Shown here: one piece after another, positions 2,718-39,868 of the stretch
Layout: the number at the start of each line of letters is the position of its first letter
How positions within the stretch are numbered: the stretch's first letter is position 1
IMG/VR virus record: IMGVR_UViG_3300043470_000527
Location: 1 to 43,173 of that record
Length of the DNA stretch: 43,173 nucleotides
From: a virus
Strand: one strand, 5' to 3'
The notes under the pieces: generated by a model
What the model was told of the DNA's origin: nothing
Seen by the model: only the letters and a program-made list of their open reading frames with translations
Databases searched by the model: none
Translations under genes and position numbers: made by a program

Positions 2718-2718
2718 A

Positions 2719-3343: not shown

Positions 3344-3522
3344 ATCTTAGCCTCATTTGCGTGACCAGAAGAACAAGTATAAACAAGAATCATTTTATCT
3401 TCATCTAATACAGCATCTGATATAGACTCCAAACAATCTTGGCAAACAAATGTTCCCCCTACTTTGGCTCCAGCAATTTCTTGCTTTGGGGTAACTTTAA
3501 TAAAGTCACTTGGATTTATCAT
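3340..3522 (-). CDS. Small zinc-ribbon protein (60 aa)
   Basis: The product is 60 residues with one CxxC (FVCQDCLESI) and a second half-site CSSGH near the C-terminus, the usual spacing of a small zinc ribbon. The start overlaps the RecA-like stop as ATGA, and its own stop overlaps the next start the same way, so translation of the three genes is coupled. It might be a protein-interaction or nucleic-acid-binding adaptor, but nothing beyond the metal site can be said. Confidence 0.6.
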   Translation of the reverse strand: MINPSDFIKVTPKQEIAGAKVGGTFVCQDCLESISDAVLDEDKMILVYTCSSGHANEAKI

Positions 3523-4526
3523 AACTTAGAATATACCATACTTTCAATGGTATCAAAGATTGCTGGATTATCTCTAACGTATTCAACTACCTTTGCACGA
3601 CCTTGCAATCTTTCATCCAGTACTGTATACCAGGCACCACCACGTTCAATAATGCCCATTAGCTCTGCTGTGTCAACAAGGTCTGCAACCTTATCTACGC
3701 CAACATGTTCTCCCTGAAAATAGAAGTCATAAGATCCACCAATAAACTGAGGTCCAGTTTTATTATAATCAATTGTCCAGTTTACTGGACGACCAACCTT
3801 TTGTTCAATCAAACGGTCACCAACAGCAATCTTGTCTTTAATGGAACTAGCTTCAGATTCTGAAGACCATAATTTTATAATTGTGCTAGAAAAGAACTTA
3901 ACAGCCATACCACCAGTAGGAATATGAGTAGCGTGCATTCCACCAAAGCTGTTACGCTGTTGCGATATAAGTACAAGCAACGTATTTTTATTTGCATAGT
4001 TAAGCATTTTAACAGCATGAGTCATATCTTTTGCTTCTGCACCAATTTGTTTTGTGTCTTGCAATTCTTTAAGCTCGTTTCCATCTTTTTCAAAGTAGAT
4101 GGCAGGTAGTAGTGCTGAGATAGAGTCTACAACAACTATGTCTACACCAGCATTCATTAGTTCAACGGCAACGTCTACCATGTCATTAATAGTTTTAGCA
4201 GAAGAATAAATTAGTTGATCGGAGTCTACACCTAACTTAGTAGCCCACTCAGGGGAATAGGATTGCTCTGAGTCAATCCAGGCACAGGTCTTTCCATTTT
4301 TTTGTGCCTCACCAATCATCTGAAGACAGAAAGAAGATTTACCAGCAGACTTGTTTCCCCAGACTAAAACCTGACGACCATATCCAAGACCACCCTTAAG
4401 TCCAACATTAAGACTTAAACTGGGAGTTGCCTGTTTTTCTATTTCTACTTCTGTTGCTATCTGTACTCTTTTTCTTGTCTTGGGATCTAGCTTTGCTAGA
4501 ATCTCCTCCATTGCTGTCTCGCTCAT
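3519..4526 (-). CDS. RecA-like recombinase
   Basis: The 335-residue protein is a RecA/UvsX-class strand-exchange ATPase. Walker A is GNKSAGKSS (residues 57-65) and Walker B is DIVVVDSISALLP (about 129-141). A loop region with SQQRNSFGGMHATHIPTGGM resembles the L1/L2 DNA-binding part of RecA, and the catalytic glutamate position is plausible in IDSEQSYSPEW. It lacks the extra C-terminal domain of bacterial RecA. It would load on single-stranded DNA and pair it with homologous duplex during recombination-dependent replication or repair. The ATG at 4526 has GGAG ten bases upstream. It overlaps the preceding small gene by 119 bases in another frame, which is unusual. Confidence 0.9.
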   Translation of the reverse strand: MSETAMEEILAKLDPKTRKRVQIATEVEIEKQATPSLSLNVGLKGGLGYGRQVLVWGNKSAGKSSFCLQMIGEAQKNGKTCAWIDSEQSYSPEWATKLGVDSDQLIYSSAKTINDMVDVAVELMNAGVDIVVVDSISALLPAIYFEKDGNELKELQDTKQIGAEAKDMTHAVKMLNYANKNTLLVLISQQRNSFGGMHATHIPTGGMAVKFFSSTIIKLWSSESEASSIKDKIAVGDRLIEQKVGRPVNWTIDYNKTGPQFIGGSYDFYFQGEHVGVDKVADLVDTAELMGIIERGGAWYTVLDERLQGRAKVVEYVRDNPAIFDTIESMVYSKL

Positions 4527-4686
4527 TAAAGTGCATCTCCAAAATTTCTGCCAGTTTCTTTATCTCTGGGCTTCTCATACTTTCTATTTTCTTAATTATT
4601 GAATACATTGTCTCTTCATCATAACTTCTAATTACCATTAGTAATTCTCCGTCTACGCCTTCTAAAAAGTAACCGCTGATTGACAT
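4408..4686 (-). CDS. Hypothetical protein (92 aa), long overlap with RecA-like gene
   Basis: The first 53 residues (MSISGYFLEGVDGELLMVIR and a helical region EETMYSIIKKIESM) precede the RecA-like start and look like a small folded domain. The remaining 39 residues lie over the RecA-like gene in another frame and are low-complexity, rich in Ser, Lys, Asp, Arg and Asn, as expected for an overprinted tail. No family is recognised. It begins 11 bases after the MazG-like gene. The N-terminal half is likely coding; how much of the tail matters is unclear. Confidence 0.5.
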   Translation of the reverse strand: MSISGYFLEGVDGELLMVIRSYDEETMYSIIKKIESMRSPEIKKLAEILEMHFNERDSNGGDSSKARSQDKKKSTDSNRSRNRKTGNSQFKS

Positions 4687-4697
4687 GTTATATTATA

Positions 4698-5042
4698 TCA
4701 CCCTAAAACGCCATGCATTTTTGCTCTATGAGTGTTTATTGACATCTTACGCATTAGTGTTTCATCTAAAGAATCTTTTACGTCACCATGCATTCTTAAA
4801 CCTTCATACAGGTCTAGCACACGAATAATAACATCTGCTAATTCTTCTACTACTTCATTTGCACCCTTTTGCTTTCTAAGTGCTTCTAAAACTTCTGTTC
4901 CTTCTGAATGAATCATAGCAATCTGTTTTGCAAAAAAGATAAATGGGTCTGCCTTTGGCTCTACATTCTCATACATGTAGTCCCAGAAACCTTTTTCAGT
5001 TGCGTTTTTATGAATTTCTTTAGCTAGTTCATCTATGTTCAT
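4698..5042 (-). CDS. MazG-like nucleotide pyrophosphohydrolase
   Basis: This 114-residue all-alpha protein shows the MazG/dUTPase-2 superfamily pattern. A first helix holds acidic residues in IAMIHSEGTEVLEALRK (ExxE-like), and a second holds EVVEELADVIIRVLDLYEG (EExxD), which together bind magnesium and the nucleotide phosphates. Such enzymes hydrolyse nucleoside triphosphates to monophosphates, cleaning aberrant dNTPs or lowering alarmone signals in infected cells; the true substrate is not readable. Its ATG overlaps the polymerase stop as ATGA, so it is translated right after the polymerase, which suits control of the nucleotide pool. Confidence 0.8.
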   Translation of the reverse strand: MNIDELAKEIHKNATEKGFWDYMYENVEPKADPFIFFAKQIAMIHSEGTEVLEALRKQKGANEVVEELADVIIRVLDLYEGLRMHGDVKDSLDETLMRKMSINTHRAKMHGVLG

Positions 5043-8000
5043 ACCTTTTCAAACTCCTTAACTGTGGTACTTCCTGATTGTGTTTGTTGTAAAACGGGTT
5101 TACATACTTTTCCTGGCTTCATATTAATTAAAGAACTAGCATACATGTTTGGAAAGATAACTACTGAGTATAGTTCTTTATCCTTATCTGCCAAAACAGC
5201 GTTTGCCATCTTCTGACCAGTTTTTGTTTTGCGTGGCGTAAAGCTAATAGTGTATAGCTCCTTGTCCGCAAGAGTCATTGTCTTTGCTTGAATATACTTA
5301 ATGAATGGATCATCAGTATTTTTTAAATCTTCTGCTGTTGCATAGGCACCAATTCTATTGTCAGCCACTAGGAAGATATAAATCTTTCCTGGTTCAATAA
5401 TGGTATCTGCTCTATCAAATATGCCAACGCTTCCAGTCTTGTCTACAATCTCAATTCGGCTCCAGCCTTCTCCACGCTTAATGGACTTAACCATTGCAAG
5501 GACAAGAAATGAACCTTCTTCTGAGTAGTCCTCTATGGGCTTTGCATATGCTTCTATCCATCTAGGAATATCACTAGTAAACTCTGGAATGTTTAAGTAT
5601 TCATAATAGCTTTCTTTTTCATATCCAGTTCTTGGATTATCAATAAAGGCTGCCCCACCAATTTTATTTAAAGCCTCTAAAGCACGACTGTTAATGCCAG
5701 ACCCTTTTGCAAGAGAATGCTTTTTAAAAGATTCATAGTCTGCATAAGGTCTTCCAGAAATAATCTTACTTCCAATGTTTTCTGAAATATACTTTACGTT
5801 TCCAAGACCAAATCTAATTGCATCTCCTTCAAGTGCAAAGTCAATATCAGATTCATTAACGTGTGGCAAACGAATAGTAATGCCAATACGCTTAGCTTCA
5901 ATTAAGTAGTCTGTGCGTGTTTCTTTATCTTTTTCATTCTTAAGAAGAGAATACATAAACTCATGTGGGTAGTAACGCTTTAGCCAAGCAGTCCAGTAAG
6001 AAAGCATTGAGTAAGCAACAGCGTGAGACTTATTAAAAGAATATCCAGCGTGTGCTTCAAAGTCGTGCCACAAGGCTTCTGCCTGTTTCTTTTCGATGTG
6101 CTTTGATGCTCCAGTAACAAATCTTTCCTTGTACTGGTCAAACTCTTTTGCATCCTTTTTCTTACCAATAATTTTGCGAACCTTGTCTGCTTCTGCCATA
6201 GACATTCCACCTAGATGAACACAGGCTAACATAACTTGTTCCTGATAAAGAATACATCCATAGGTTTCTTTGGTAAAATCTTTAACAATATCGTGAACAT
6301 ATTTTACTGGAGACTTACCCTTTTTACGCTTAATATATTCTGCACCAATAGTGTTCATTGCACCTGGACGAACCAAAGCATTTGATGCTGCAAGTTCCTC
6401 AAAGTTGTATACACCCATCTTTACAAGCAGGTTTGTATAAGGAGTTGTTTCTGCTTGAAACACACCTTTAGTGAATCCAGCAGTAAGATCTGCATATACT
6501 TCCTTATCGTCCAAAGGTAGATTTGTTAGGTCAACAGCCTTGTTTTTTCTCTCTTTGATAATATCTAGAGTATCGTGAATTACTGCTAAAGTTTTTAGAC
6601 CAAGTGCATCAATTTTAATTAAACCAATGTCTGCTGCTTCTTCCATATCTACAGCTACTACTGGAATTCTAGAATCACTTTGTGTGTCCTTGCGAGTTTC
6701 CATTGGAGCATACTTCCAAATTTCATCCTTAGATGCAACAATTCCAGCAGCGTGCATTCCTGTTCCACGAATGCGACCACGAAGTTTTTCTGAATACTTT
6801 ACAACCTCTGGATATTTTTCACGAAACTCTTTTGAAGAAGCACTAGATATAAACTCATCCCATGTTTCAACACCCTTGAGTGCTTTGTTAACTTCTGGAA
6901 GTGGAACATGGAATGCTCGTGCAACATCTCGCACAACACCCTTATCTTTAAATGTTAAAAATGTAGCGATAGATGCAACGTGCTTATATTGCTCAGTAAG
7001 ATAGTCCTTAACTTCTCCACGCTTACGATCTTCATAGTCAGTATCAATATCAGGAAAGTCATTTCGCTCTGGATTAATAAAACGAAAGAAAAGCAATCCA
7101 TACTTAATCGGATCAACTTCGGTAATTCCTAACGCATAGCAAACCAAAGAACCTGCTGCAGAACCACGACCAGGACCAACCATAATTTCATTATCTTTAG
7201 CCCAACCAATCATATTGCCAACAACAATAAAGTATGATGAAAAGTTTTTAGACTTAATAATTTCTAGTTCTTCTTGAAGTCTTTCTTCGTACTCTGGGAT
7301 TCCATTTAGACCACGCTTATCTAATCCTTCACGAGCAAGTTTTTCTAACTGGCTATCTGGATTGTTGTACTCTGCAGGAAGCAAGTCTAAGTTTTGTTTA
7401 TACTCATAAGAGCCAATCTTATCGGATATCTCTACGGAGTTTTCATATAAATCATCACGATCAATACCTTGGTCTAGCATTAACTGCTTAACGTCTTTGT
7501 GTCCCATAAGAAAGATTTCTAAATCTTTGAATGACATCATGCGATCACCATATAGGTAATCTAAGCGTTCCATCATATCTTTAATCTTCTTGGACCCCTC
7601 AAAGGTTGAGCCCTTTTGAACATTTGGATGTGTGCCAAGAATAAGCATGATTTCTTCTGCTACACGATCTTCAGGAGATGCGTAGTGGCAATCTAAGGTT
7701 ACTGTACTCTTAATGCCCATCTCATCTGCTAGATTAAGCATTGCCATATTAAGTTCTACTGGATTGTGTGGCTGAAGCTCCATGTAAAAATCATCTTTGA
7801 ATACTTGCTTAAACCAATCAGTGTGTTTCCTTGCAAGATCCATATTATTGTTTTGAATTGCCTTAGCAATTATTCCATTCATGCAACCAGAAACAATTAC
7901 TAGGTCTGAAGAGTGTTGTCCTAAAACATCAAAGTCAATTCTAGGCTTCATAAAGAATCCATCATTCCAACCAATTTCAGATAGCTTAGAAAGGTTCTGC

Positions 8001-8302
8001 AATCCCTTTTCGTTTTTTGCTAAAACAATTAAGTGGTTATAAATTTGACCGTCTTCTCCACGATCCTTTTTAGCTCTCTTATCTAGACGATCATCTGTGA
8101 AGTATGCTTCTAGCCCAAGAATAGGTTTTACGTTTGTTTCTTTTGCAGCATTAAGAAAGTCACGGTGTCCACTAAGGGTTCCGTGATCTGTAATTGAAAG
8201 AGCTGTCATTCCAACTTCTTCTGCTCTTTTAAGAAGCTCAGTTGGTGACGAGAATCCGTCCAATAAACTATAGTAAGAATGTGAATGATGATTATGATAC
8301 AT
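5039..8302 (-). CDS. dnaE: DNA polymerase III alpha subunit (DnaE-type, C family)
   Basis: The 1087-residue protein is a full C-family replicative polymerase. A PHP domain spans about residues 3-210, with HHSHSYYSLLDG, ITDHGT, GLEAYF, NHLIVLAKN, SGC and LDCHYASPED, so most metal-binding residues look retained. The palm has PGRGSAAGS (about 377-385) and the catalytic pair in DFPDIDTDYED (Asp418, Asp420), with the third Asp565 in LIKIDALGLKTL. The fingers and helix-hairpin-helix part include GYSFNKSHAVAYSMLSY. An OB fold near residues 950-1010 (MVKSIKRGEGWSRIEIVDK) follows. It would copy the phage genome. The start has GGAG four bases upstream. No separate proofreading exonuclease was found nearby, so the PHP domain may proofread. 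Confidence 0.97.
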   Translation of the reverse strand: MYHNHHSHSYYSLLDGFSSPTELLKRAEEVGMTALSITDHGTLSGHRDFLNAAKETNVKPILGLEAYFTDDRLDKRAKKDRGEDGQIYNHLIVLAKNEKGLQNLSKLSEIGWNDGFFMKPRIDFDVLGQHSSDLVIVSGCMNGIIAKAIQNNNMDLARKHTDWFKQVFKDDFYMELQPHNPVELNMAMLNLADEMGIKSTVTLDCHYASPEDRVAEEIMLILGTHPNVQKGSTFEGSKKIKDMMERLDYLYGDRMMSFKDLEIFLMGHKDVKQLMLDQGIDRDDLYENSVEISDKIGSYEYKQNLDLLPAEYNNPDSQLEKLAREGLDKRGLNGIPEYEERLQEELEIIKSKNFSSYFIVVGNMIGWAKDNEIMVGPGRGSAAGSLVCYALGITEVDPIKYGLLFFRFINPERNDFPDIDTDYEDRKRGEVKDYLTEQYKHVASIATFLTFKDKGVVRDVARAFHVPLPEVNKALKGVETWDEFISSASSKEFREKYPEVVKYSEKLRGRIRGTGMHAAGIVASKDEIWKYAPMETRKDTQSDSRIPVVAVDMEEAADIGLIKIDALGLKTLAVIHDTLDIIKERKNKAVDLTNLPLDDKEVYADLTAGFTKGVFQAETTPYTNLLVKMGVYNFEELAASNALVRPGAMNTIGAEYIKRKKGKSPVKYVHDIVKDFTKETYGCILYQEQVMLACVHLGGMSMAEADKVRKIIGKKKDAKEFDQYKERFVTGASKHIEKKQAEALWHDFEAHAGYSFNKSHAVAYSMLSYWTAWLKRYYPHEFMYSLLKNEKDKETRTDYLIEAKRIGITIRLPHVNESDIDFALEGDAIRFGLGNVKYISENIGSKIISGRPYADYESFKKHSLAKGSGINSRALEALNKIGGAAFIDNPRTGYEKESYYEYLNIPEFTSDIPRWIEAYAKPIEDYSEEGSFLVLAMVKSIKRGEGWSRIEIVDKTGSVGIFDRADTIIEPGKIYIFLVADNRIGAYATAEDLKNTDDPFIKYIQAKTMTLADKELYTISFTPRKTKTGQKMANAVLADKDKELYSVVIFPNMYASSLINMKPGKVCKPVLQQTQSGSTTVKEFEKV

Positions 8303-8317
8303 AAAACTCCAATGATA

Positions 8318-8350
8318 TGGGGGCGATAGTAGTATACACCATCGCCCCCA
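8318..8350 (-). terminator. GC-rich hairpin between SSB-like and polymerase genes
   Basis: The arms GGGGGCGAT (8319-8327) and ATCGCCCCC (8341-8349) are perfect inverted repeats, extended by a T-A pair at 8318/8350, with a 13-base loop. In this AT-rich sequence the stem stands out. It lies in the 61-base gap after the SSB-like gene and before the polymerase. No U-run follows on the transcribed strand, so it may be a partial or factor-assisted terminator, or a 3' stabiliser of the SSB message, rather than a classic intrinsic terminator. Confidence 0.6.
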
Positions 8351-8363
8351 AGGTTGTCAACTT

Positions 8364-9020
8364 CTACCAGTCTGCTGAGGTAGTTGTTGTTACATCTGTA
8401 TCAAGACCCATGAAGAATGATTCTTGATCTGGATAGGTGACGTGACGAGTTGCTGTCTTTTCAAGATCATATAACTCTACGCCATCCCATGAGAATGATG
8501 TGTCATCTGTTGCCAGAGGAAATAAAGAATAGCTGGTCTGTGTTCCAGTACCAGTACGCTTTAAACGCCACATAACATTTGTAATTGATCCAGCATCACC
8601 TGCATATTCGATGATGGTTGTAGTCGTTGGAGACTTTGGACCAACTCCTTGAGACCAAATAGCAACGTATGGATCTTCTGTGCTGTCGTCAACCATTACG
8701 TTTGTGTAATAGCGTAGACGAGCTTTCCATCCTGCCTTTGGATCACGGCGGTGCATCTCACAACCAAAGCAACGACCCTCTTCTTCAAGAGTACAAGCAG
8801 CCTTACGGCGGTAATCCTTTGGGTTTGTGTGTTCTGCTACAACAATTGCAAGACCATTTTCTGCGTTGTAGCTCTTTGAGTCTGCATCTACTTCGTTAAG
8901 AAAACGAATCTTGATGCTCTGTCCATCATCTAACTTCAACCAACGGGCTTTAGGACCATCATGTCCCTTTGGTTTGTCGATTAGGCTTTTAATGTTAGCC
9001 AATCCAGTAATACTTGCCAT
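8364..9020 (-). CDS. Probable single-stranded DNA-binding protein
   Basis: The 218-residue protein sits between primase and polymerase. It holds a likely zinc site CTLEEEGRCFGCEMH (Cys76, Cys84, Cys87, His90), inserted in a beta-rich body: ARWLKLDDGQSIKIRFLNE at the start and RLRYYTNVMVDD and YVAIWSQGVG later. This plan is like T4 gp32 (an OB fold with a zinc finger), and the N-terminal part about residues 25-45 has strand patterns of an OB fold. The C-terminus is short, polar and ends in an aromatic residue (SADW). It has its own strong promoter, an AGGAGA ribosome site and a hairpin after it, as expected for an abundant protein. The SSB call is inferred from these features, not from a search. 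Confidence 0.65.
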   Translation of the reverse strand: MASITGLANIKSLIDKPKGHDGPKARWLKLDDGQSIKIRFLNEVDADSKSYNAENGLAIVVAEHTNPKDYRRKAACTLEEEGRCFGCEMHRRDPKAGWKARLRYYTNVMVDDSTEDPYVAIWSQGVGPKSPTTTTIIEYAGDAGSITNVMWRLKRTGTGTQTSYSLFPLATDDTSFSWDGVELYDLEKTATRHVTYPDQESFFMGLDTDVTTTTSADW

Positions 9021-9041
9021 AATATATTTCTCCTAATATTC

Positions 9042-9058
9042 GGTTCTATACAGGAACC
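9042..9058 (-). promoter_or_regulatory. 5' UTR inverted repeat upstream of SSB-like gene
   Basis: GGTTC (9042-9046) and GAACC (9054-9058) form a 5-bp inverted repeat with a 7-base loop, between the predicted transcription start and the AGGAGA ribosome site. It could be an operator, an mRNA-stabilising 5' hairpin or an autoregulatory site for the SSB-like protein; the sequence does not decide. Confidence 0.4.
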
Positions 9059-9067
9059 TGTTTAACA

Positions 9068-9096
9068 ATTGTATCAGAATGACAAAGCAATGTCAA
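9068..9096 (-). promoter_or_regulatory. Consensus sigma70-type promoter for the SSB-like gene
   Basis: On the minus strand a perfect -35 TTGACA (9091-9096) is followed by a 17-base spacer and -10 TACAAT (9068-9073), with an extended TGA just before the -10. The -35 lies inside the 3' end of the primase gene. The predicted start is near 9061, giving a leader of about 40 bases before the ATG at 9020. This is one of the two best promoter matches in the window. Confidence 0.85.
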
Positions 9097-10027
9097 ATGA
9101 CGCAACGGACTTAAATGCCTCAAGGATTTGTTTGTCTGTCATGTCACCAATATCTTTTATTCCGTCTGGAAAACTAATTTTAGTGATGTGCTTTTCCTTA
9201 AGACTGTTGTAAAGTTTTCTTTCTAGTTCCATTCCTGCCTGGTCTTGATCGGATGCAAGGATGATTCCAGTTGAATACTTACGCAACAACTCTATTTGAT
9301 TCTTCCCAAGAGTAGCACCAAGAGTTGCTACTGCAGGAATATTTAATTGCCACAACCTAATAACATCAAAGGATGATTCTACAATAGCAATGTTTTTATA
9401 CTTAACATTATTTAGGTTAAATAAAACTTTATTTCTTGGAAGTCCAGTAGAATTTTTAAAAGACTTACCTTCAATAGACCTGCCAACAAAACCAACACAA
9501 ACATTTGTATGAGAATAAACTGGGACAGTTACCATCTGTTGCTTTTCTGAATATCCAAGTTTAAAATTCTTAATAGCATCTAATTCTATTTGTCTTGTTT
9601 TGTAGTAGTCTAATCCTTCTTGCGTTTCCAAAAGAGTGTTGTGTAACTTGCGTACAAGTACAGGATCAAATTCTTCAAATTCTTCTTTGGGCTCAATTGA
9701 TTTTTCTATCCTTTCTGAAAAGTCTATACTTTTTGCTGCAGAAGAAATTATTCTAGCAGCTTCAAAATATGTTTTATTTGCTGACCTCATTATTAAATCT
9801 AACAGTGTTCCGTTTTCTCCACAAGAGAAACAGTAAAATAATCCTTTTTCTTTATCTACTTCACAGGCTGGGGTGTTGATGTTATAGTGAAAGGGGCAAT
9901 AAACTAAAAAATGAGTGTCTAACTCTGTTCCAGTTGAGATTCCACAGAGGCTGAGGATTTCTGAGATTTGATCTGAGTCGTAGATATCATGGGTAGGAGC
10001 TTGTTTCCTACCACTCCCTTGAAACAT
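9074..10027 (-). CDS. DNA primase, DnaG-type (CHC2 zinc finger plus TOPRIM)
   Basis: The 317-residue protein has a CHC2-type zinc finger near the N-terminus (YCPFHYNINTPACEV, then FYCFSCGENGT: Cys44, His47, Cys66, Cys69). A TOPRIM domain follows, with NIAIVESSFDVIRLWQL (Glu217) and ILASDQDQAGMELERK (Asp260, Asp262). It would make RNA primers for the replication fork. It is about half the length of bacterial DnaG and lacks a clear C-terminal helicase-binding domain, which is common in phage primases. It lies two genes after the DnaB-type helicase. Its start overlaps the upstream small gene by 109 bases, and no later ATG precedes the zinc finger. Confidence 0.92.
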   Translation of the reverse strand: MFQGSGRKQAPTHDIYDSDQISEILSLCGISTGTELDTHFLVYCPFHYNINTPACEVDKEKGLFYCFSCGENGTLLDLIMRSANKTYFEAARIISSAAKSIDFSERIEKSIEPKEEFEEFDPVLVRKLHNTLLETQEGLDYYKTRQIELDAIKNFKLGYSEKQQMVTVPVYSHTNVCVGFVGRSIEGKSFKNSTGLPRNKVLFNLNNVKYKNIAIVESSFDVIRLWQLNIPAVATLGATLGKNQIELLRKYSTGIILASDQDQAGMELERKLYNSLKEKHITKISFPDGIKDIGDMTDKQILEAFKSVASFDIALSF

Positions 10028-10269
10028 TGTGCCTTAGCCTTTCCTATATATACGCCATAAGTTGTTATTTTAAAATCGAATGAATGACCATTATAGCTTA
10101 CTGAGAAGCAGGTGTCAAGATCTAAGTGGGGAACATACCCCTTTAACCTCATATAATGGTCCATTATTATAGAATATTCAATTTTTAATCGCATAATGTG
10201 GGATTCATCGTAGATTTGACCATCTAAACTAAAATCCTTAATTTTCTTATGCGATATTAAGTTGTTCAC
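9919..10269 (-). CDS. Hypothetical protein (up to 116 aa) between helicase and primase
   Basis: About the first 80 residues precede the primase gene and look folded: MRLKIEYSIIMDHYMRLKGY, VPHLDLDTCFSVSYNG, then FKITTYGVYIGKAKAQ, a helix followed by a beta meander. The last 36 residues overlap the primase in another frame and are Ser/Gln/Lys-rich. The long frame opens at a GTG (10269) with no good ribosome site. The internal ATG at 10194 is another candidate but also lacks one. Its place between helicase and primase suggests a replication accessory role. I recognise no family. Confidence 0.5.
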   Translation of the reverse strand: MNNLISHKKIKDFSLDGQIYDESHIMRLKIEYSIIMDHYMRLKGYVPHLDLDTCFSVSYNGHSFDFKITTYGVYIGKAKAQCFKGVVGNKLLPMISTTQIKSQKSSASVESQLEQS

Positions 10270-10289
10270 ATAACTATTATATTATGATA

Positions 10290-11519
10290 TTAAGTATCAA
10301 TTGGGTCAAAAACCTCTTGAAACTTGCCTTTATCAAAATCAACCATCATGATAAAGTCACCCAAAAACCCATGCCTATTCTTTCTAAAGGCACATTCTAG
10401 GGCATCAGAGTTTTGTTTCCTACCCATAGCAAGAACCCAGTCAGCATCGTAGGCAATTTGTCTAGACCATGCTACTTGTCCTAACTGTGGCACAGACTCC
10501 AAATCTGAGGAATCTCCAGGCGTAGCAGAGGCAATAGCAATGACTGGCACCTGTTCTGAGATAGCCAATAATTTAAGCTCTCTAGATAGATTCTTAATTT
10601 TAACAGTCTCATTTTGATGAGATGCTGCATTGTCTGTCATAAGTTGTAAGTAGTCAATAATAACCATATCTGGCTTGTATTGATCAATCTTGGCTCTAAT
10701 GACATTTGGATTAACTTCGCTTCCACCATCGTTAGATATAATCTTAAACGGTTGCTTACCCTCTAGATATTCTTTAGCCCATTCTTTAAACTCTTGATCA
10801 TTTACACGACCAGCACTCATATATCTATGAGACCATCTGCCATCACCAATAATAGTTAAAATTCTATTTCTAACCTCTTGCTCAGTCATTTCTAGAGAAA
10901 GAATCAGAGGTACCTTTCCATGCTTCCAAGCTTGTACTGCTAGATACAAAGCTAACCAAGACTTACCAATTGCAGGGTAGGCTAATAGGACCCCAAGTTG
11001 TCCCTTTGAGATACCCATAGGCAAACAAACATCAAATGAAGCAATTCCAGTTTTTACACCAACATCACCATTCATAGATTCTTGTCTTGTCTTTTCAAAG
11101 TAACTAACTGCATCTTCAACGTCTGTTACGTCTAGGTCTCTAACCTTTGCCGTAATTCTTGAAAGACTTGCAATATCTTTTGTTAAGGATGTTAATGCTT
11201 TTGAAGACTCATTGCCTTGAAGTAACTGTGCAGCCTTCTTTACTGAACCACGAAGAGTTTCATCTAAGTATGTTTCTTTTAATCTATTTACTGCATATAC
11301 AGTTGGACTTGTTGTTACAACTGGGTCAAAGTCTTTAAACCTATCTACAATAATAGATATGTCTGGAACCTGGCGTGTTTCATTGTAGTAGTCTTTTGTA
11401 AAGTCCCAAATGTCTCCACAGTTTAATAGCAGATTTTCTACATTGTTTTCAAATAGGACATGTATATCTTTATTCTTACAAAGTGCAGTAATTACCTCTG
11501 CCTCTTCACGCATTCCCAT
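10290..11519 (-). CDS. Replicative DNA helicase, DnaB-type
   Basis: The 409-residue protein has the two-part DnaB plan: a helical N-terminal part (about 1-125) and a RecA-fold C-terminal motor. Walker A reads AYPAIGKSW (180-188), with Ala where the first Gly usually sits. Walker B is DMVIIDYLQLM (284-294). H1a-like ILSLEMTEQEVRNRI and a late WSRQIAYDADWVLAMGR region with the FRKNRHG motif match the family. It would unwind DNA 5' to 3' ahead of the fork and work with the primase just downstream. The ATG at 11519 has AGGAG seven bases upstream and overlaps the preceding gene by 14 bases. Confidence 0.93.
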   Translation of the reverse strand: MGMREEAEVITALCKNKDIHVLFENNVENLLLNCGDIWDFTKDYYNETRQVPDISIIVDRFKDFDPVVTTSPTVYAVNRLKETYLDETLRGSVKKAAQLLQGNESSKALTSLTKDIASLSRITAKVRDLDVTDVEDAVSYFEKTRQESMNGDVGVKTGIASFDVCLPMGISKGQLGVLLAYPAIGKSWLALYLAVQAWKHGKVPLILSLEMTEQEVRNRILTIIGDGRWSHRYMSAGRVNDQEFKEWAKEYLEGKQPFKIISNDGGSEVNPNVIRAKIDQYKPDMVIIDYLQLMTDNAASHQNETVKIKNLSRELKLLAISEQVPVIAIASATPGDSSDLESVPQLGQVAWSRQIAYDADWVLAMGRKQNSDALECAFRKNRHGFLGDFIMMVDFDKGKFQEVFDPIDT

Positions 11520-31753: not shown

Positions 31754-32287
31754 TTACACCTCCACCAAATCAATGGATACGTCCCATAGATCGTTATACT
31801 GACCTCTTTTTGTTATAGTAAAATCAAAATTGTCAAAAAATACATTATATTTTTCTACATTGGAACCCGATCCAACTGTTAGATCGTCATTGTTATCATA
31901 TATTAAGAGCATCCAAAAATCATCATAGTTTGCTTCATACCAATCTTTAATATCTATTCCAGCACCAAAACCATCTGAAGTTATAGATACAGAGCCATTT
32001 AATTTTCTTGAAGGAATGTTTTCCCAAGATGTTGAAAAATTATATTTATCTGCCACATGAACAGACCTCATTGTTCCGTCAACCATTCTTCTTTTTGACT
32101 CTAATCTTTCTACAGAAATTTGAAGAGGAGATCTATTGTCATCAGTTAAATACAATGTGGAGCCACCTGTTTGAAAATCCCATTTTCCAGTAGGAGTACC
32201 CTCAGAAAGTTCTGGTAGTGGCTCTTTAGTAGAAAACACAATGAGTGATGGTCTTAACCATTTTTCATCTAAATCAACAGCTGTCAT
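31754..32287 (-). CDS. Minor tail protein, distal-tail (Dit)-like (177 aa)
   Basis: The beta-rich 177-residue product lies between tape measure and hub genes, the place of the distal tail protein in siphoviruses. Visible patterns are LRPSLIVFSTKEPLPELSEG, STSWENIPSRKLNGSVSITS, and DWYEANYDDFWMLLIYD and KYNVFFDNFDFTITKRGQYN near the end, a beta-sandwich pattern like Dit N-terminal domains. A hexamer at the tail end would connect tail tube and tip. Position strongly supports the role; the sequence alone is weaker. Confidence 0.65.
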   Translation of the reverse strand: MTAVDLDEKWLRPSLIVFSTKEPLPELSEGTPTGKWDFQTGGSTLYLTDDNRSPLQISVERLESKRRMVDGTMRSVHVADKYNFSTSWENIPSRKLNGSVSITSDGFGAGIDIKDWYEANYDDFWMLLIYDNNDDLTVGSGSNVEKYNVFFDNFDFTITKRGQYNDLWDVSIDLVEV

Positions 32288-35200
32288 TATATCTTCCTAC
32301 TAAAATTTCTTCTATTTTCTTGTGTGTTAATTGCCTTTACGACTTCTTTTGCAACGGCTCTTGGATCATTTGTTCCAGATGCATCCACATTAATATTATA
32401 GACTGAATTGTTTGAGATTGCTGAAGCGTCAACAAATCCTTGATTATTTTGAGGAACATTATATTTCATTGCTTCAATTCCAGACTTAAGATCTGCTGTA
32501 AGTGGGGATGTTAGGACTGCTTCTCCCTTATGTAAGTTAGCAAGACCATTTGACATTGTAAGACCACCTTCACGCATACCTGGGGGATTAGATCCTGGTT
32601 TAAGACCTGACCACTCAAAGTGTAGGTGAGCCCCTCTTACCTTTCCAGTGTCTCCAGAAAAACCAATTCTTTGACCAGCCCTTACTTGTCCTGGTTCGGC
32701 ATCATATCCGCTTAGGTGAGCGTATAAAGACTCTGTTCCATCATTATGTCTTATAGTTGCGTAGTTTCCAAAACCTGTTGCACTGTATCCTCTTGACTTT
32801 CTTCCAGATGCCATTGCATAAACCGATGTACCTATTCCAACACCATAGTCAATTGCTCTTCCAGGGTACCTTGCACTGTGTGCTTTTCCAGAGCTTGGGT
32901 ATGTGCCTCTTGCAGTTACCCCTGGACTTCCAAAAAGAATTTTTGCAACTTGTCCAAGTAATTCATAATTTGCAATTGTTGGTGCGTTTGAGGGACCTTG
33001 ATCATTTCCTGGCTCTTCTTCTGACTTAGCTGTTTGTATTACATTTCCAATAGCCTTTGCTATAAGATTTGAATTTACTACTCCAAACCCAAGTGCTGTA
33101 GCAGACTGAGAACTACCTGCTTGGGCAGAAACATATCCACCACTTGCAAATTTTCTTTCATTAATTTGATCAAGCATATCAGTTCCATATTCATCAACAG
33201 CTGAGGCACGAACCACATACTCTCCATCTGAAAGTCTTGCTGTAATAGAGTCTGAATTTTTTGTTCCTGGTCCATGAACAATACCACCAGTTGCTCTATT
33301 TGGAATCATTGCATTTCCCTTAATTCCAGCTATGCTGTTATTAATAAGGTCTGTTAATTCTTTTCCACTTACATCGTATTCTTCTCCTGCAGATGTTATT
33401 GCACCAGAAACTATCTTCTTAAAGTCTTTGTCAAAACTGGAAGCAAGATCAGTAACTAATTTTTGTGCCTCTGGGGGAAGCTTTGATGCCATATCTGATA
33501 TAGAGCCAAGATAATTATACATGTCTGTTGCTAAGGCTTCGCCTGGCTTAAGGGCTTTTAATTTTTCAGCCTCTGCAATTGCGGCATCAATTGATTGCAG
33601 TGTTGATGACTTGTTTCTTTGAATTTTTTCATTTTCTCTATCAAGCTGCTCAAGTCTCTTTTCGTGTCTTTCGTCTTCTCCCTCTGCAAGTTCCTTATTC
33701 TTATCAATTTGATCTTGAAGTTTTTCCTCTGCTGCATCTGCCACTTCTTTAATTCTGTCAATTTCTGTAGTTCTTCCAAACTGTGCTGCATTTGAAGCCA
33801 TGTCTTGTTGTGCTTGAAGGAATCCAAAGACATCTCCAGATGCAAGAGACTGTAAGCCACCAAGAGCAGACTGGCGTTGTTGATTTCTAAAGTCATCTGC
33901 TTTATTTTCTTTATCTAGTGCATCAATATACTCTTCTGCACCTTCTCTAATTGCCTTTATTTGTTTTTCTAGTCCCTTATTCTGTTTGTCAATATTTTTT
34001 TGAAAGTTTTTGTGTCTTTTGTTTTCTGCATCTTTAGCTGATTCATTTTTAGCAATAAGGTTATCGTATCTTGCAGTTTCTGCTGCTTTTACTTCATTAA
34101 AACTTGCTATTTGAGCGTCAAGACCTAAGTCTAGTTCCATATCAATTTTTGCAAGAGCATCCATTTCAGCAAGTCTCTTGTTAACAATTTGTGCTTCCTT
34201 ATCTGATAGATCTAAATCTTTAAGTAATCCATTAAGATTAATTCCTGCTGCATGAGCTTGCATAATCAAAAGCTTTGTATCTGTATCGTCTACACTATCG
34301 CCAAGCTTTTCTATTGTGTCAAATATTGGACCATCTTCAATTCCCATTTCTTTGAGAGAGCTCTTTATTGATGCATCTAAAGCAGATCCAACGTCTGATT
34401 GGTTAACTCCAGCAGCAGCACCTTCTCTAAACGCAACTGCAACTGAATCCTTTAATAGTTTAGTTCCTTCTCCTAAATCGGCTGAAAGTAGTGCAGATTC
34501 AATTACTCCGTTAAATTGTCCTTCAAGATTGGCTTTTTTGGTTCCTATAATTTCTCCACTATTTAAACCATATTTTGCTGTTTCTTGGAAAGCCATTCCT
34601 ACCGCAGCAGTTGCTTGTGATTGATTTTCTATTCCACGGAACTTTCCAGCCATAGAAGCAAGCTGACCACCCGTTCCAGAGGCTTGAGCAAGTACAGATA
34701 AAATTTCATTGGCTTGATCTGCAGTAAATCCTTGCTGTAGCATTTTTCCATACTGACCCAAAAACATTGCTGCTGGATCGTTTGTATTTTTTAGCTGTTC
34801 TACAAGTTTTTTGTTTTCTTCCTGGTCAAGTATTGCTTTCTTTAGTGCAGGGTCAACTCCTAATGCAGAAGTTCCTCCACCAAAACCTAAATTCTTGGCA
34901 ATATCTGCATTTGTCTTCATTTGATCATTAACAGATTTTAGAGTAATTCCATAATATTCAGCAGCTGCAGTTTGTGAGGCATACATTGACTCCCCAGCTT
35001 CTCTTGCTTCGCTAATAGCTTTTCTGTATGCTATAACACCTGCAGCTACTGCAGTTACAGCAGCGAGTGCGGCAATTCCAACTGGTCCACCAAGAAGGGC
35101 TAAACCTCTTCCAGCCATCATAAGACCGCTTCCAAGCTTTGATGTTCCGCCAGATGCTATAGACATGCGAGCACCCTTTACAAATGTTGCTGAACCTGCA

Positions 35201-38200
35201 CTTTTAAGTTTTCCACCTGCAGCACCTAAGCCTCCAACACCACCTTGTGCTAACTGCATTGCAGTAGTTGCTAAAAATAATCCGTTTGTAAACTTTGTTA
35301 AACCTGCGGTAGCTTTAGCAAATCCTTCATTCATTGCACCAATTGAGTTCAGTGCAAATGCTGCACCCATTGCTCCACCAGATAATGAAGCTCCACGATT
35401 TAAAATTGATTTGCCCATAGAGGCAGCTCTACCTCTTGCTTTTGACAATCCTGTTATTGAGGCTTTTCCATAGTTTTCTCCAGCTCTTTCTGCACCCTTT
35501 GCATTAGCATTAAGTCTATTTTCAAACGAGTCTGTGTATATTTCTGCTACCTGGTCCGCCTGTCTTTGTACTTCTTTTGCAGGAGACTTTGCTTTAATTG
35601 CCTTTTTTACTCCAGTAGTTGCACCTGTTGCAGCTGGAACTGCTCCGCTTAAGTTAAGTTGTTCTAGTAATGGTAATTGTCCAGATAGTCTTGCTGAAGA
35701 TACTGCTCTACCTGCTGCAATCCAAGGAGGAACTCTACTAGAAACTGATTTTCCTGGAACAGCAGTTTTTCCTTTTTGTGCAACAGAAAGATCTCCAGAA
35801 GCAATTCTAGACTCTACATCCATTAATGCTGCTTCATAAAGCCTTGTTCCAATTCTATCTATTGGTTGATTTCCCTTAATAATTGATCTTGCACTTGCTT
35901 TAAGTTCTTGTTTGCTAAACCCTTCCTCTACCAACTGAGTTATAGCATTACCCATAGATTTTCTAAATGCTACAACGTTACCCTTTGACCCACCTGGTCC
36001 AAGCTTTGTCATCATACTTAGTGTATTATTTTCTGCTGCACTTGCAGCAACAAGATTTGGTGGACTAAATACTTTTTTACCAGTTACTGGATCAACCTGT
36101 GGCGTAATGTGGGTAGCATCAAACTGCTTCATTGCGTTAATAATTTTTTGATTTTGAATGTCAAAGGCTGCAACTATTTGATCAATTATGTCTCCAACTA
36201 TTCCAGTAAAAGGTGCAGACCTTTCTTGAAGAAGACCTCTAATGATTGGATCATTGTTACTTAGTCTTGTTCCCTTTGCAAAACCCTTTATGTTTCCCTG
36301 ATTCATTGCATTAAGAATTGGACCATATTTTTGTGTTGCTGCCTTATTAACAACAAATTCTCCAGGCATCAGTAATGCTGGAACCGAATCAGTATTTCCA
36401 GATCCTGGGACTCCACCACCGTTTGCTCTTTTAATTGGCTTACCCTTAGCTCCTGGAACAAATTGTCCAGGATTTGCAGCAGCTTGATTTCTAAGAGCAG
36501 CAACATATGCACTCATAGTTGAAGTTAGTCTTGCTAAAGTTTGATCTTGTCTTGCATACGCAGATGTAAGTAAGTCTGTAGTTTTAAGAGCAACTATCTG
36601 TTCAGTATTAAGGAGCTCAAACTGTTTTGTTGGAATTCCCATAACTGCACGACCAAGATTTACGATACCCATTGCACCCTTAGTTACATAGCCAAGGAAG
36701 TTTGCAAGGACACCAGTAATCATAACTATTGGACCAGCAATTGCTGTAATTCCTGTTGCCAACTTAATGAAGTTTTTAACAGGTTCTGGAAGATTACTTC
36801 CGAATTCAACTAATTTATTAAACAAGTCTGCGGCTTTTTCTAAGAAAGGTATAACTGATCTAGTCAGGGCTTCTCCAATTGGCAGGAGAGAGGCTTTAAT
36901 TGACTCCATTGCCCTTTGGAATCTCATTGATGTAGACTCTGTAAGAGTTCTAAGTTCCTGGTTTGCAATATTTGCAAGATCTGTTGAAGTTGCTGACATC
37001 AATTTAATTACTTCAACTGTTTGGGATCCTGCCTGATTCAAGTTATCAAAAAGTGCTGCAATTCTAGCAAACTGATATTTACCAAAAACTTGTTCAATAA
37101 TTTGTGCTCTAGAGAATTCATCTAGACCCATCATTGCCTGTTGGAATTCAAGAATTGTAGGCATTAGCTTACCCTTGTTTCTTGTTACAATTCCCTCAAG
37201 GTCGATTCCAAATCCTCTTGCAGTTTCTGCAGCTTGTTTTGTTGGGTTAATTAAAGATGCCATACCAGACTTAATTGCGTTTGCACCTTCAGCAGCGTTA
37301 ATGCCACCTTCCTTCATTGCAACAAGCAAAACAGAAAGGTCTTTAACGTCTCCACCCATTGCTTTAATAACTGGACCAGTCCTTGGAATAGCTTCTGTTA
37401 AGTCCTGAATAGAAACTGATGTTTGGTTTTCAACTGCGTTAAGAAAGTCAATGGATTCTGCAAGTTCTTGTGTACTCATATTAAATGCACTTTGTAGTGC
37501 AAGAGTTGCTTTCATAGCCTCTTGTCTATCTACTTCACCAAGCACTGCAAGACGAGTAGTTTGTTGGATAGAACTTGTTAGCCTTTGCCCTTCAAGACCA
37601 GTTGCTGCTAGGTCTGCAGCAAGGGCTGCAGTTTGACTAACCGCAATACCAAACTTACCTGCAATGTCTTTTGCTAGAAGTTCTACCTGCTTTCTCATTT
37701 CTTGAGAAGCGTTTGTAGTTGTCATGACAAGATCAGATCCATATACCTTTTGGAATCTTGTTAATTCTTTGTCAAAATCTCTAAATGTTTTTGAAAGGCT
37801 TGCACCTAAAATTGTAAGGGGAATAGTAAGACCAACTGTAAGCTGTCTACCAGCCCATTGAGTATTTTTACCCCAGTTGATAAGTTCTCTTGATCCATCT
37901 TGAACCAACTTATTAAATATATTAAACTGTTCTCTAGCAATGTTCATGCTAGTTGTCATATTTTTAGTATCAACAGATAGTGGGGTAATGACCATACCTT
38001 TATTTCTTCCAGTAGCATCTTTTCCAAGGCTAACAATCTCTGATTGAGCCTTTCTTACTTGCTCTACTGCAAGCTTTCTTACTCTTGATCCTTCAGTGTA
38101 GGCTCTTCTTGCTTCTTTAAAATAATCTCTCATATGGAGTTTATTCTTTTGAAGAGCCTCACCGAAGCGATCTACGTCACTTGAAAGATCCACCATTGTG

Positions 38201-38394
38201 GTCTGGAAAGCTCCAAGTGATTTTACATTTGTTCCAAACGAGGTTGCTAATTGTTTTTTAGCAGTTAGTGCAGCTTTGTCTAAAGAATTAAATGAATTAT
38301 TTAATAGAGATATTTCTCTAGCAAGACTTCTAACTTGAGCAATGGCAGGACCAAAGTCCGCATCATACTCAAAGTTTGCGTTAATATCCGCCAT
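32287..38394 (-). CDS. Tape measure protein with M23 peptidase domain (2035 aa)
   Basis: The N-terminal third has the TP901-type tail tape measure domain (RELINWGKNTQWAGRQLTVG, then FGIAVSQTAALAADLAATGL and KEGGINAAEGANAIKSGMAS). Two hydrophobic segments (GPIVMITGVLANFLGYVT and GPVGIAALAAVTAVAAGVI) may insert into the host membrane. A long coiled coil lies around residues 1430-1620. Near residues 1830-1960 is a LytM/M23 peptidase with HSARYPGRAIDYG, YAHLSGY and GAHLHFEW, giving the His-Asp-His zinc site. The protein sets tail length and the peptidase would cut peptidoglycan during DNA entry. I prefer ATG 38394 (AGGAG seven bases upstream) over 38400. It overlaps the chaperone stop by 14 bases. 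Confidence 0.95.
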   Translation of the reverse strand: MADINANFEYDADFGPAIAQVRSLAREISLLNNSFNSLDKAALTAKKQLATSFGTNVKSLGAFQTTMVDLSSDVDRFGEALQKNKLHMRDYFKEARRAYTEGSRVRKLAVEQVRKAQSEIVSLGKDATGRNKGMVITPLSVDTKNMTTSMNIAREQFNIFNKLVQDGSRELINWGKNTQWAGRQLTVGLTIPLTILGASLSKTFRDFDKELTRFQKVYGSDLVMTTTNASQEMRKQVELLAKDIAGKFGIAVSQTAALAADLAATGLEGQRLTSSIQQTTRLAVLGEVDRQEAMKATLALQSAFNMSTQELAESIDFLNAVENQTSVSIQDLTEAIPRTGPVIKAMGGDVKDLSVLLVAMKEGGINAAEGANAIKSGMASLINPTKQAAETARGFGIDLEGIVTRNKGKLMPTILEFQQAMMGLDEFSRAQIIEQVFGKYQFARIAALFDNLNQAGSQTVEVIKLMSATSTDLANIANQELRTLTESTSMRFQRAMESIKASLLPIGEALTRSVIPFLEKAADLFNKLVEFGSNLPEPVKNFIKLATGITAIAGPIVMITGVLANFLGYVTKGAMGIVNLGRAVMGIPTKQFELLNTEQIVALKTTDLLTSAYARQDQTLARLTSTMSAYVAALRNQAAANPGQFVPGAKGKPIKRANGGGVPGSGNTDSVPALLMPGEFVVNKAATQKYGPILNAMNQGNIKGFAKGTRLSNNDPIIRGLLQERSAPFTGIVGDIIDQIVAAFDIQNQKIINAMKQFDATHITPQVDPVTGKKVFSPPNLVAASAAENNTLSMMTKLGPGGSKGNVVAFRKSMGNAITQLVEEGFSKQELKASARSIIKGNQPIDRIGTRLYEAALMDVESRIASGDLSVAQKGKTAVPGKSVSSRVPPWIAAGRAVSSARLSGQLPLLEQLNLSGAVPAATGATTGVKKAIKAKSPAKEVQRQADQVAEIYTDSFENRLNANAKGAERAGENYGKASITGLSKARGRAASMGKSILNRGASLSGGAMGAAFALNSIGAMNEGFAKATAGLTKFTNGLFLATTAMQLAQGGVGGLGAAGGKLKSAGSATFVKGARMSIASGGTSKLGSGLMMAGRGLALLGGPVGIAALAAVTAVAAGVIAYRKAISEAREAGESMYASQTAAAEYYGITLKSVNDQMKTNADIAKNLGFGGGTSALGVDPALKKAILDQEENKKLVEQLKNTNDPAAMFLGQYGKMLQQGFTADQANEILSVLAQASGTGGQLASMAGKFRGIENQSQATAAVGMAFQETAKYGLNSGEIIGTKKANLEGQFNGVIESALLSADLGEGTKLLKDSVAVAFREGAAAGVNQSDVGSALDASIKSSLKEMGIEDGPIFDTIEKLGDSVDDTDTKLLIMQAHAAGINLNGLLKDLDLSDKEAQIVNKRLAEMDALAKIDMELDLGLDAQIASFNEVKAAETARYDNLIAKNESAKDAENKRHKNFQKNIDKQNKGLEKQIKAIREGAEEYIDALDKENKADDFRNQQRQSALGGLQSLASGDVFGFLQAQQDMASNAAQFGRTTEIDRIKEVADAAEEKLQDQIDKNKELAEGEDERHEKRLEQLDRENEKIQRNKSSTLQSIDAAIAEAEKLKALKPGEALATDMYNYLGSISDMASKLPPEAQKLVTDLASSFDKDFKKIVSGAITSAGEEYDVSGKELTDLINNSIAGIKGNAMIPNRATGGIVHGPGTKNSDSITARLSDGEYVVRASAVDEYGTDMLDQINERKFASGGYVSAQAGSSQSATALGFGVVNSNLIAKAIGNVIQTAKSEEEPGNDQGPSNAPTIANYELLGQVAKILFGSPGVTARGTYPSSGKAHSARYPGRAIDYGVGIGTSVYAMASGRKSRGYSATGFGNYATIRHNDGTESLYAHLSGYDAEPGQVRAGQRIGFSGDTGKVRGAHLHFEWSGLKPGSNPPGMREGGLTMSNGLANLHKGEAVLTSPLTADLKSGIEAMKYNVPQNNQGFVDASAISNNSVYNINVDASGTNDPRAVAKEVVKAINTQENRRNFSRKI
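32465..32585 (-). repeat. Tape measure GGxx...GE motif, copy 3 (degenerate)
   Basis: Encodes MREGGLTMSNGLANLHKGEA followed by VLTSPLTADL, a shortened version of the repeated glycine-acidic motif in the tape measure, placed after the M23 peptidase domain. Confidence 0.5.
33150..33310 (-). repeat. Tape measure GGxx...GE motif, copy 2
   Basis: Encodes ATGGIVHGPGTKNSDSITAR then LSDGEYVVRASAVDEYGTDM, matching copy 1 as 'GG.V.G.G..DS..A.L..GE.VV..A....YG..ml...N', placed between the coiled coil and the peptidase domain. Confidence 0.65.
36301..36432 (-). repeat. Tape measure GGxx...GE motif, copy 1
   Basis: Encodes NGGGVPGSGNTDSVPALLMP then GEFVVNKAATQKYGPILNAM. The motif recurs twice more in the same protein. 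In other tape measure proteins this unit is frequent; its function is not established. Confidence 0.65.
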
Positions 38395-39066
38395 GAACAT
38401 CTCCTAACACTTCATAAGCTAATCCCATGTCAGATGTTATTCCATACTCAACGGCTTTTGCCTTTGTTGTATCTCCAGTCAATCTTGCCATCGCCCTCGC
38501 TTGAATTTCTTGGAATGTTGCAGGACGACTGTCATCGTCCTGGTTGTCACTACTATTCTCCATGTCTATTCCGTTTACCATTGCTAGGAATTTATTTTTC
38601 CTATTTTCAGATTCGTACATCGCTTTTAGCGTTGCTACGAGCTCTGGCATTGATAAACTAGACTCTAGTTCATCGTAGTCTTTCCAGTGACCAAGAAGAA
38701 AAACTTCCGCCTCTAGTGCAGCGAGGTCTAGATCTGTCCAGCTAGTTCCTTCGCTGCTTCCAGCAGGTTTGGGTCGTTCAGCTTGATATCAGCAGCCACC
38801 TCCAAGATTTTGTACATTGTCTGAAGATCAAGTGCTTCTTCAAGTGCGTCTCTGTCTTCAGCAAGTGCTGGTGAAAACTGCTTAAAGGCAATTGCAGTGC
38901 AGGTAATAAGCAAGTCAAGGAATTCATCCTCGTTTGTTGACTTTGCTGTACCTTCTGACCACACCTTCATTAGTTCTCTTAGTTTTTTCAAGCTTAGTGG
39001 CTTGACTTCCACTTTTGTTCCGTCTAATAGCTCTAGCTCGATACTTTCGTATACTGTTGTTGCCAA
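38381..39066 (-). CDS. Tail assembly chaperone fusion (gpGT-like) made by -1 frameshift
   Basis: A single -1 slip at CCCAAAC (38767-38773) after 100 codons joins the first chaperone frame to the downstream frame. After LNDPN, translation continues PAGSSEGTSWTDLDLAALEA, then EVFLLGHWKDYDELESSLSM and the 89-residue frame ending in YEVLGDVHGGY. The fused product is about 228 residues. The continuous sense of the joined protein (an acidic helical region and then a C-terminal helical domain) and the canonical heptamer make this convincing. In lambda-type phages gpG and gpGT bind the tape measure and recruit tail tube subunits; the genes sit between major tail and tape measure as expected. Confidence 0.88.
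38728..39066 (-). CDS. Tail assembly chaperone, gpG-like (112 aa)
   Basis: The unshifted product is 112 residues, beginning MATTVYESIELELLDGTKVE with a beta strand pair and continuing helical (LKKLRELMKVWSEG, DEFLDLLITCTAIAF), ending at a TAG at 38728. The fold pattern, size and place between the major tail protein and tape measure fit the G-type tail assembly chaperone. The start codon is TTG, supported by a full AGGAGG five bases upstream. The gene would be made in large excess over the frameshift fusion. Confidence 0.85.
   Translation of the reverse strand: MATTVYESIELELLDGTKVEVKPLSLKKLRELMKVWSEGTAKSTNEDEFLDLLITCTAIAFKQFSPALAEDRDALEEALDLQTMYKILEVAADIKLNDPNLLEAAKELAGQI
38767..38773 (-). 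promoter_or_regulatory. Programmed -1 frameshift site CCCAAAC
   Basis: The heptamer C CCA AAC matches X XXY YYZ in the zero frame (codons CCA AAC). Slipping back one base lets both tRNAs re-pair and moves ribosomes into the downstream chaperone frame. A short CTGCT/AGCAG hairpin begins directly after it, closer than usual for a stimulator, so stimulation is uncertain. Confidence 0.85.
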
Positions 39067-39091
39067 AACTTCCTCCTAATTGTTCTCTTTA

Positions 39092-39169: not shown

Positions 39170-39868
39170 CTAAGCTTGGTTGTAAGCTCTGTCGATGATC
39201 TTGCCGTAAGAAGCATTTCCATCTCCTGCTTCGTTTATAGACGAAGCCAGTAGACGTAGAGTTACTGGGAATACAGTAGCCTCATTTCTTCTAACGCCAA
39301 CAGTTACAGTCTCCATTGAAAGAGCTCTGTATCCAACATAAACTCTTTCTACGAAGTTCTTTGTTGCTGCTGTCTTCTTTTCATCTGGTCCTGGACCAAC
39401 GATAGCGATGGAGCGTTCTACTGGAGAGTATCCAAGAGCACCACCGTTAAGGTTTACTGATTGAACTGGGGAAGACATTGTTCCTGAAAGGTCCGTTGAC
39501 TTTCCACCAATTGCTACCAAGAAGTTTTCAAGTGTGGCTTCTGCAAGTGTTGTATTCAACATTACTCGCTGACCCTGCTTGAAGATTTTTGCAACGTCAA
39601 GTAGCTGATCTACCTGTACTTCACCATAATCTGGTTCGAACGATAGTTCTGCACCTTCCGATGTGTAACCTACTGAGTCCCACTTTCCTGTTGGAGCTGT
39701 TCCTGAGTAGATATCAACATTGTCTGGATCCTGAAGGGATACAGTACATGCTGCAAGAGTTGACGCTACCTTTGGTAGATCGTCTTCTGTAAGTTCTGTG
39801 TCTGTTGTATGTCCGATGTATAATGCACCTGCACCTACAACAATATTTTTTGCGTTTCCTAGTGCCAT
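39170..39868 (-). CDS. Major tail (tube) protein
   Basis: The 232-residue protein begins MALGNAKNIVVGAGALYIGH and shows the beta-rich pattern of siphovirus tube proteins: GYTSEGAELSFEPDYGEVQV, then QRVMLNTTLAEATLENFLVA and a C-terminal VGVRRNEATVFPVTLRLLAS, close in layout to lambda gpV-like proteins. Its position directly before the tail chaperones and tape measure is diagnostic. It has the strongest ribosome site in the window (AGGAGGTG seven bases before ATG), a 5' hairpin, a candidate promoter and a terminator, all fitting very high expression. Confidence 0.88.
   Translation of the reverse strand: MALGNAKNIVVGAGALYIGHTTDTELTEDDLPKVASTLAACTVSLQDPDNVDIYSGTAPTGKWDSVGYTSEGAELSFEPDYGEVQVDQLLDVAKIFKQGQRVMLNTTLAEATLENFLVAIGGKSTDLSGTMSSPVQSVNLNGGALGYSPVERSIAIVGPGPDEKKTAATKNFVERVYVGYRALSMETVTVGVRRNEATVFPVTLRLLASSINEAGDGNASYGKIIDRAYNQA

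Follow-up and report, generated by a model that had tools for sequence, protein, structure and literature searches.

A predicted -1 frameshift of the lambda G/GT kind in a phage tail gene, and relatives that may arrive at the same short and long chaperones by other routes

The question raised by this locus is how two reading frames, lying between the genes for a major tail protein and a tape measure protein, are expressed, and whether they yield two proteins or a single protein in two lengths. The locus lies in virus record IMGVR_UViG_3300043470_000527, of which we analysed the whole 43,173-nt stretch (hereafter the window), and the original prediction was that a canonical -1 frameshift links two tail chaperones here. 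Read from 39066, the minus strand runs TTG GCA ACA ACA ... AAC GAC CCA AAC CTG CTG ... CAG ATC TAG, and from this sequence and that of its relatives we consider it very probable that ribosomes undergo a programmed -1 frameshift here, like that of G/GT in phage lambda. The gpG/gpGT reading is supported by the gene order, the conservation of the slippery heptamer, purifying selection in the -1 frame, a match to a chaperone fold, and relatives that encode the fusion as a single uninterrupted ORF. The elements of the gene are as follows.

39072-39077, minus strand: Shine-Dalgarno sequence AGGAGG, with a 5-nt spacer to the TTG start (from the sequence)
38728-39066, minus strand: 0-frame ORF, the short form G, 112 aa, TTG start and TAG stop (from the sequence, a match to phrog_10504 and the fold)
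38767-38773, minus strand: slippery heptamer C_CCA_AAC, in frame (from the sequence and codon-level conservation, 86/86 heptamer loci)
38728-38730, minus strand: 0-frame stop TAG, the end of the short form (from the sequence)
38381-38767, minus strand: -1-frame extension, the T domain, 128 aa plus TAA (from the open frame, a match to phrog_10474 and dN/dS)
38381-39066, minus strand: whole GT fusion, 228 aa (100 + 128), predicted to arise via the -1 frameshift (from the sequence and a colinear single ORF in a sister lineage)
38648-38650, minus strand: first ATG of the -1 frame (no SD-like motif in freshwater relatives; lies inside continuous fused ORFs)

All the sequence features that had been proposed, with their numbers, were confirmed when the sequence was re-read. 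The TTG start is present at 39066 behind its Shine-Dalgarno sequence, and an SD-like motif also precedes the G start in 21 of 23 non-redundant relatives. The 0-frame codons over the heptamer are GAC CCA AAC, which places C_CCA_AAC in the right phase at 38773-38767, and the zero-frame stop follows AAC after 12 sense codons, the short distance that had been given. Re-reading the -1 frame from 38767 gives PAGSSEGTSWTDLDLAALEAEVFLLGHWKDYDELESSLSMPELVATL..., which continues for 128 residues onto the downstream frame with no stop between 38767 and 38650, the first being the TAA at 38383-38381; together with the 100 residues ahead of the shift this gives the expected length, and the predicted junction reads LNDPN-PAGSS. 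The claim that needed revision was that of two linked chaperones: a gpG/gpGT-type shift is supported, but the locus encodes one chaperone in two lengths, G and GT, with the first 100 residues in common, and T is an alternative C-terminal domain, not a second chaperone.

On this strand G/GT follows the major tail protein gene and precedes the tape measure gene; the two neighbours are annotated as follows.

39170-39868, minus strand: major tail protein, upstream neighbour (phrog_2175, E=1.3e-29; phrog_885, major tail protein, E=1.1e-4; Pfam Phage_TTP_17 just below the cut-off)
32287-38400, minus strand: tape measure protein, 2037 aa, downstream neighbour (phrog_10030, E=2.9e-140; PhageMin_Tail; Peptidase_M23)

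Both G (phrog_10504, E=1.9e-25) and T (phrog_10474, E=3.1e-10) match PHROG families of unknown function, and support from family profiles is weak, a match to Pfam Phage_TAC_19 falling below the cut-off. The structural model of G is good (pLDDT 80.5), and the viral fold that matches it best belongs to a protein annotated as a tail assembly chaperone (E=7e-8); in the PDB its best match, a weak one (E=0.41, TM about 0.44), is 2ob9, the tail assembly chaperone of HK97. The T model is helical and of low confidence (pLDDT 54.7). Orthologues in Streptomyces phages are annotated in GenBank as tail assembly chaperones, and no relatives of G were found in the bacterial or archaeal genomes searched. As to the surroundings, the tape measure protein has an M23 peptidase domain at its C-terminal end (residues about 1848-1931), and its start is likelier at ATG 38394, which has an AGGAG 6 nt ahead of it, than at 38400, leaving an overlap of 14 nt with the end of T. 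On the same strand, a module for replication and recombination (1113-11519) encodes RuvC-like, PD-(D/E)XK nuclease, RecA, DNA polymerase III alpha, DnaG-like primase and DnaB-like helicase proteins, and the window contains no tRNA genes.

Under the proposed mechanism, most ribosomes would read the TTG ORF to its TAG and release the 112-aa G. We infer a rate of slippage at which a minority of ribosomes shift, when tRNA-Pro, paired to CCA, and tRNA-Asn, paired to AAC, move back together by one base onto CCC AAA; the slipped ribosomes would then go past the TAG in the -1 frame and complete the 228-aa GT. If the lambda roles carry over, G and GT would both coat the tape measure protein through their common G part, and GT would use its T part to recruit the major tail protein (PMC5009743). 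Both forms may, again as in lambda, depart before the tail is completed. Among described heptamers, C_CCA_AAG is listed as highly shift-prone in E. coli and G_GGA_AAC is listed for the archaeal virus HCTV-1 (PMC5009743). AAC is probably a less favoured A-site codon than AAG in E. coli, which may not mirror the host of this phage.

CCCAAAC alone is not rare in the window (3 found, 3.9 expected), and across the ~19 in-frame sites of the overlap ~0.1 matches to any XXXYYY pattern are expected by chance; the case for the site therefore rests on conservation. Homologues were taken from viral contigs and 130 cultured phage records (127 Streptomyces, 3 Rhodococcus). In all 86 heptamer-bearing loci of close relatives (65 distinct), CCCAAAC or CCCAAAT lies 14 codons ahead of the 0-frame stop, CCA counted, the distinct loci comprising 55 with CCCAAAC and 10 with CCCAAAT. 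In a further set of 80 loci, partly from the same contigs, GACCCAAA[C/T] is present in every sequence listed. Heptamer bases 1-4 are supplied by the codons of D98 (GAC, 64/64) and P99 (CCA, 64/64), and among the 40 conserved 0-frame columns up to N100 these are the only two without synonymous variation, a pair with a chance of 1 in 780, taking every pairing of the 40 columns as equally probable. N100 is encoded by AAC in 54 sequences and AAT in 10, and the heptamer is kept by both. It could be argued that the heptamer is merely a constrained protein motif, LNDPN, and that the shift has a different site in the overlap or a different mechanism, for example +2 slippage, as LNDP is invariant as protein and 12 more codons precede the stop. 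Protein constraint, however, does not fix GAC over GAT, nor CCA over CCG or CCT, and the heptamer is kept in kind where the protein motif changes: in more distant relatives (L219, L224, L228 and L230) the codons are GAG GGA AAC, giving another canonical heptamer, GGGAAAC. In many relatives, moreover, a -1-frame stop directly adjoins the heptamer region, which rules out a shift farther upstream. We consider a shift elsewhere exceedingly unlikely; by these sequence comparisons, the site is conserved at the codon level beyond protein constraint. Another of the more distant relatives, L263, also has GGGAAAC, only three codons ahead of its 0-frame stop.

A different objection is that G and T are separate proteins, with T (89 aa) started at ATG 38650 by coupling or re-initiation, which implies no peptides from PAGSSEGTSWTDLDLAALEAEVF. 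An ATG does occur at this position in the freshwater clade, and many GenBank records of Streptomyces phages draw T as its own ORF with an internal start. However, no SD-like motif precedes this ATG in any freshwater relative, the Streptomyces phages lack Met at this position, and in one of these, Francob (L083), there is no T-frame start codon until 233 nt beyond the 0-frame stop. Selection was compared in 23 non-redundant sequences, in which the 27 T residues between the 0-frame stop and the ATG (residues 113-139) have a median dN/dS of 0.112, against 0.135 for G and 0.268 for the rest of T; they are the most constrained part and under strong purifying selection, and here the -1 frame is stop-free in 23/23 whilst the other two frames contain stops in 23 and 22. 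The Met at 38650 also occurs within the continuous fused ORFs of the sister lineage, and it is therefore probably just an internal residue and not a start. Separate initiation would, furthermore, leave the invariance of the heptamer codons unexplained. We rejected independent initiation of T on the missing SD, the start-free stretch in Francob, the constraint ahead of the ATG and the Met inside fused ORFs, and regard separate proteins as very unlikely. Because errors often account for frame changes in metagenomic contigs, the change of frame could be ascribed to misassembly, or else to a decayed gene; yet the same frame relation occurs in >80 independent contigs as well as in cultured, finished phage genomes, and purifying selection acts on both sides of the shift. 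Refuted by these independent genomes, error or decay retains a practically negligible probability. The evidence thus supports translation of the -1-frame extension without a start codon of its own, as the frameshift would provide.

One candidate stimulator of the frameshift lies downstream of the heptamer.

38718-38757, minus strand: candidate stimulatory stem-loop, 9 nt past the heptamer and including the 0-frame stop (from pairing in the subclade)

Across 10 distinct sequences of the window's subclade, its stem has 12 pairs with 98.3% of cells paired and 2 compensated pairs, and its score was equalled by 10 of 500 shuffles. The 12-pair stem is not kept in other heptamer-bearing relatives, and outside the window's subclade a family-wide 3' stem or pseudoknot is unsupported. 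In the gpG/gpGT class a 3' stimulatory RNA structure is common, not obligatory, and this stem is plausibly a lineage-specific stimulator that may help slippage, not part of the class definition. An internal Shine-Dalgarno stimulator was considered and rejected: the GGAGG that precedes the heptamer by ~25 nt is not conserved among relatives, and known internal SD stimulators sit nearer to the slippery site.

A sister lineage of 86 metagenomic loci (L226, L251, L253, L257, L262, L265 and L272-L351) shows a different arrangement of the same domains. In this lineage T is in frame with the upstream G domain in one continuous ORF, no conserved slippery heptamer was found at the G-T junction, and in 84/86 loci the fused GT is followed by a second, short G gene, at a distance of 43-57 nt in the loci listed. 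GT/G has the same two neighbours as in the window: 78/86 loci contain both the major tail protein gene and the tape measure gene. These distant relatives from water metagenomes would obtain the same two proteins from a fused gene and a separate short gene, with no frameshift. All 24 frameshift-type loci, by comparison, have a single G ORF. In an unrooted tree, the short-G copies group with the single-G frameshift genes (99/89), whilst the fused copies form a clade of their own.

Another variant is found in the Boydwoodruffvirinae and close contigs, where the codons orthologous to the window heptamer read GAC CCG GAA (CCCGGAA) in 16/16 sequences (L084, L086-L088, L090, L091 and L095-L104). The -1-frame codon just ahead of CCC is a stop in 12/16 of them, and no X_XXY_YYZ heptamer was found between that stop and the 0-frame stop in the CCCGGAA sequences inspected. 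Among the 94 conserved columns of this group, the same codon invariance is seen in only six others, all of them Lys AAG.

It is likely, on our assessment, that one orthologous family has at least three ways to a short and a long chaperone: a canonical X_XXY_YYZ shift (CCCAAA[C/T] or GGGAAAC), a CCCGGAA shift, and a continuous GT with a short G gene. If true, CCCGGAA would be a genuine slippery sequence, and tailed phages could use a frameshift or a two-gene layout interchangeably. Two genes in place of a frameshift amount to a natural experiment, and the replacement supports the view that the frameshift serves to supply a short and a long chaperone. We consider these comparative results worth more than the site itself, which nonetheless corrects the annotation of this phage and many relatives, where T is given as a separate gene or as hypothetical.

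The site belongs to the well-known lambda gpG/gpGT class, of which it is an ordinary member with no new mechanism: as in lambda, a small gene flanked by those for the major tail protein and the tape measure has a -1 shift site close to its 3' end, at an X_XXY_YYZ heptamer, giving short and long products with a common N-terminus. The heptamers themselves differ, C_CCA_AAC in the window and G_GGA_AAG in lambda, and the likeness is one of layout, not of sequence comparison. The class was recognised as conserved by Xu, Hendrix and Duda (2004), according to the review PMC5009743.

Closer counterparts are found in Streptomyces phages of the Stanwilliamsviridae (Karp, Francob, Wakanda, Annadreamy and BillNye), which have orthologous G and T (33-44% identity, tblastn) in the same gene order in larger genomes of about 126-136 kb. 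In the Loccivirinae the heptamer CCCAAAT occupies the same place as CCCAAAC in the window. G and T of the Stanwilliamsviridae are mostly annotated as two genes; several GenBank records (L082, L084-L089, L090, L091, L093 and L094) draw T as a separate, internally started ORF, which cuts off its conserved N-terminal part, and among the records viewed a joined CDS is given only for Francob and for Francesca (L092), a Rhodococcus phage. The CCCGGAA of the Boydwoodruffvirinae is absent from the window's gene and identical to the 'threetwotwo' motif of PRFect, called hypothetical by its authors (PMC10885494). As it takes the place of the canonical heptamer in the orthologous codons and is conserved at the codon level, that motif gains evolutionary support as a candidate slippery site. 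Finally, T4-like tail assembly chaperones have short and long forms from two genes with no frameshift, according to the passage of PMC10885494 that cites Vladimirov et al. 2022 (doi 10.1016/j.virol.2021.11.003), and so far as that passage describes them they resemble the lineage with a fused GT and a short G gene; in contrast, the window uses a frameshift, and the two-gene relatives described here are orthologous to the frameshifting gene.
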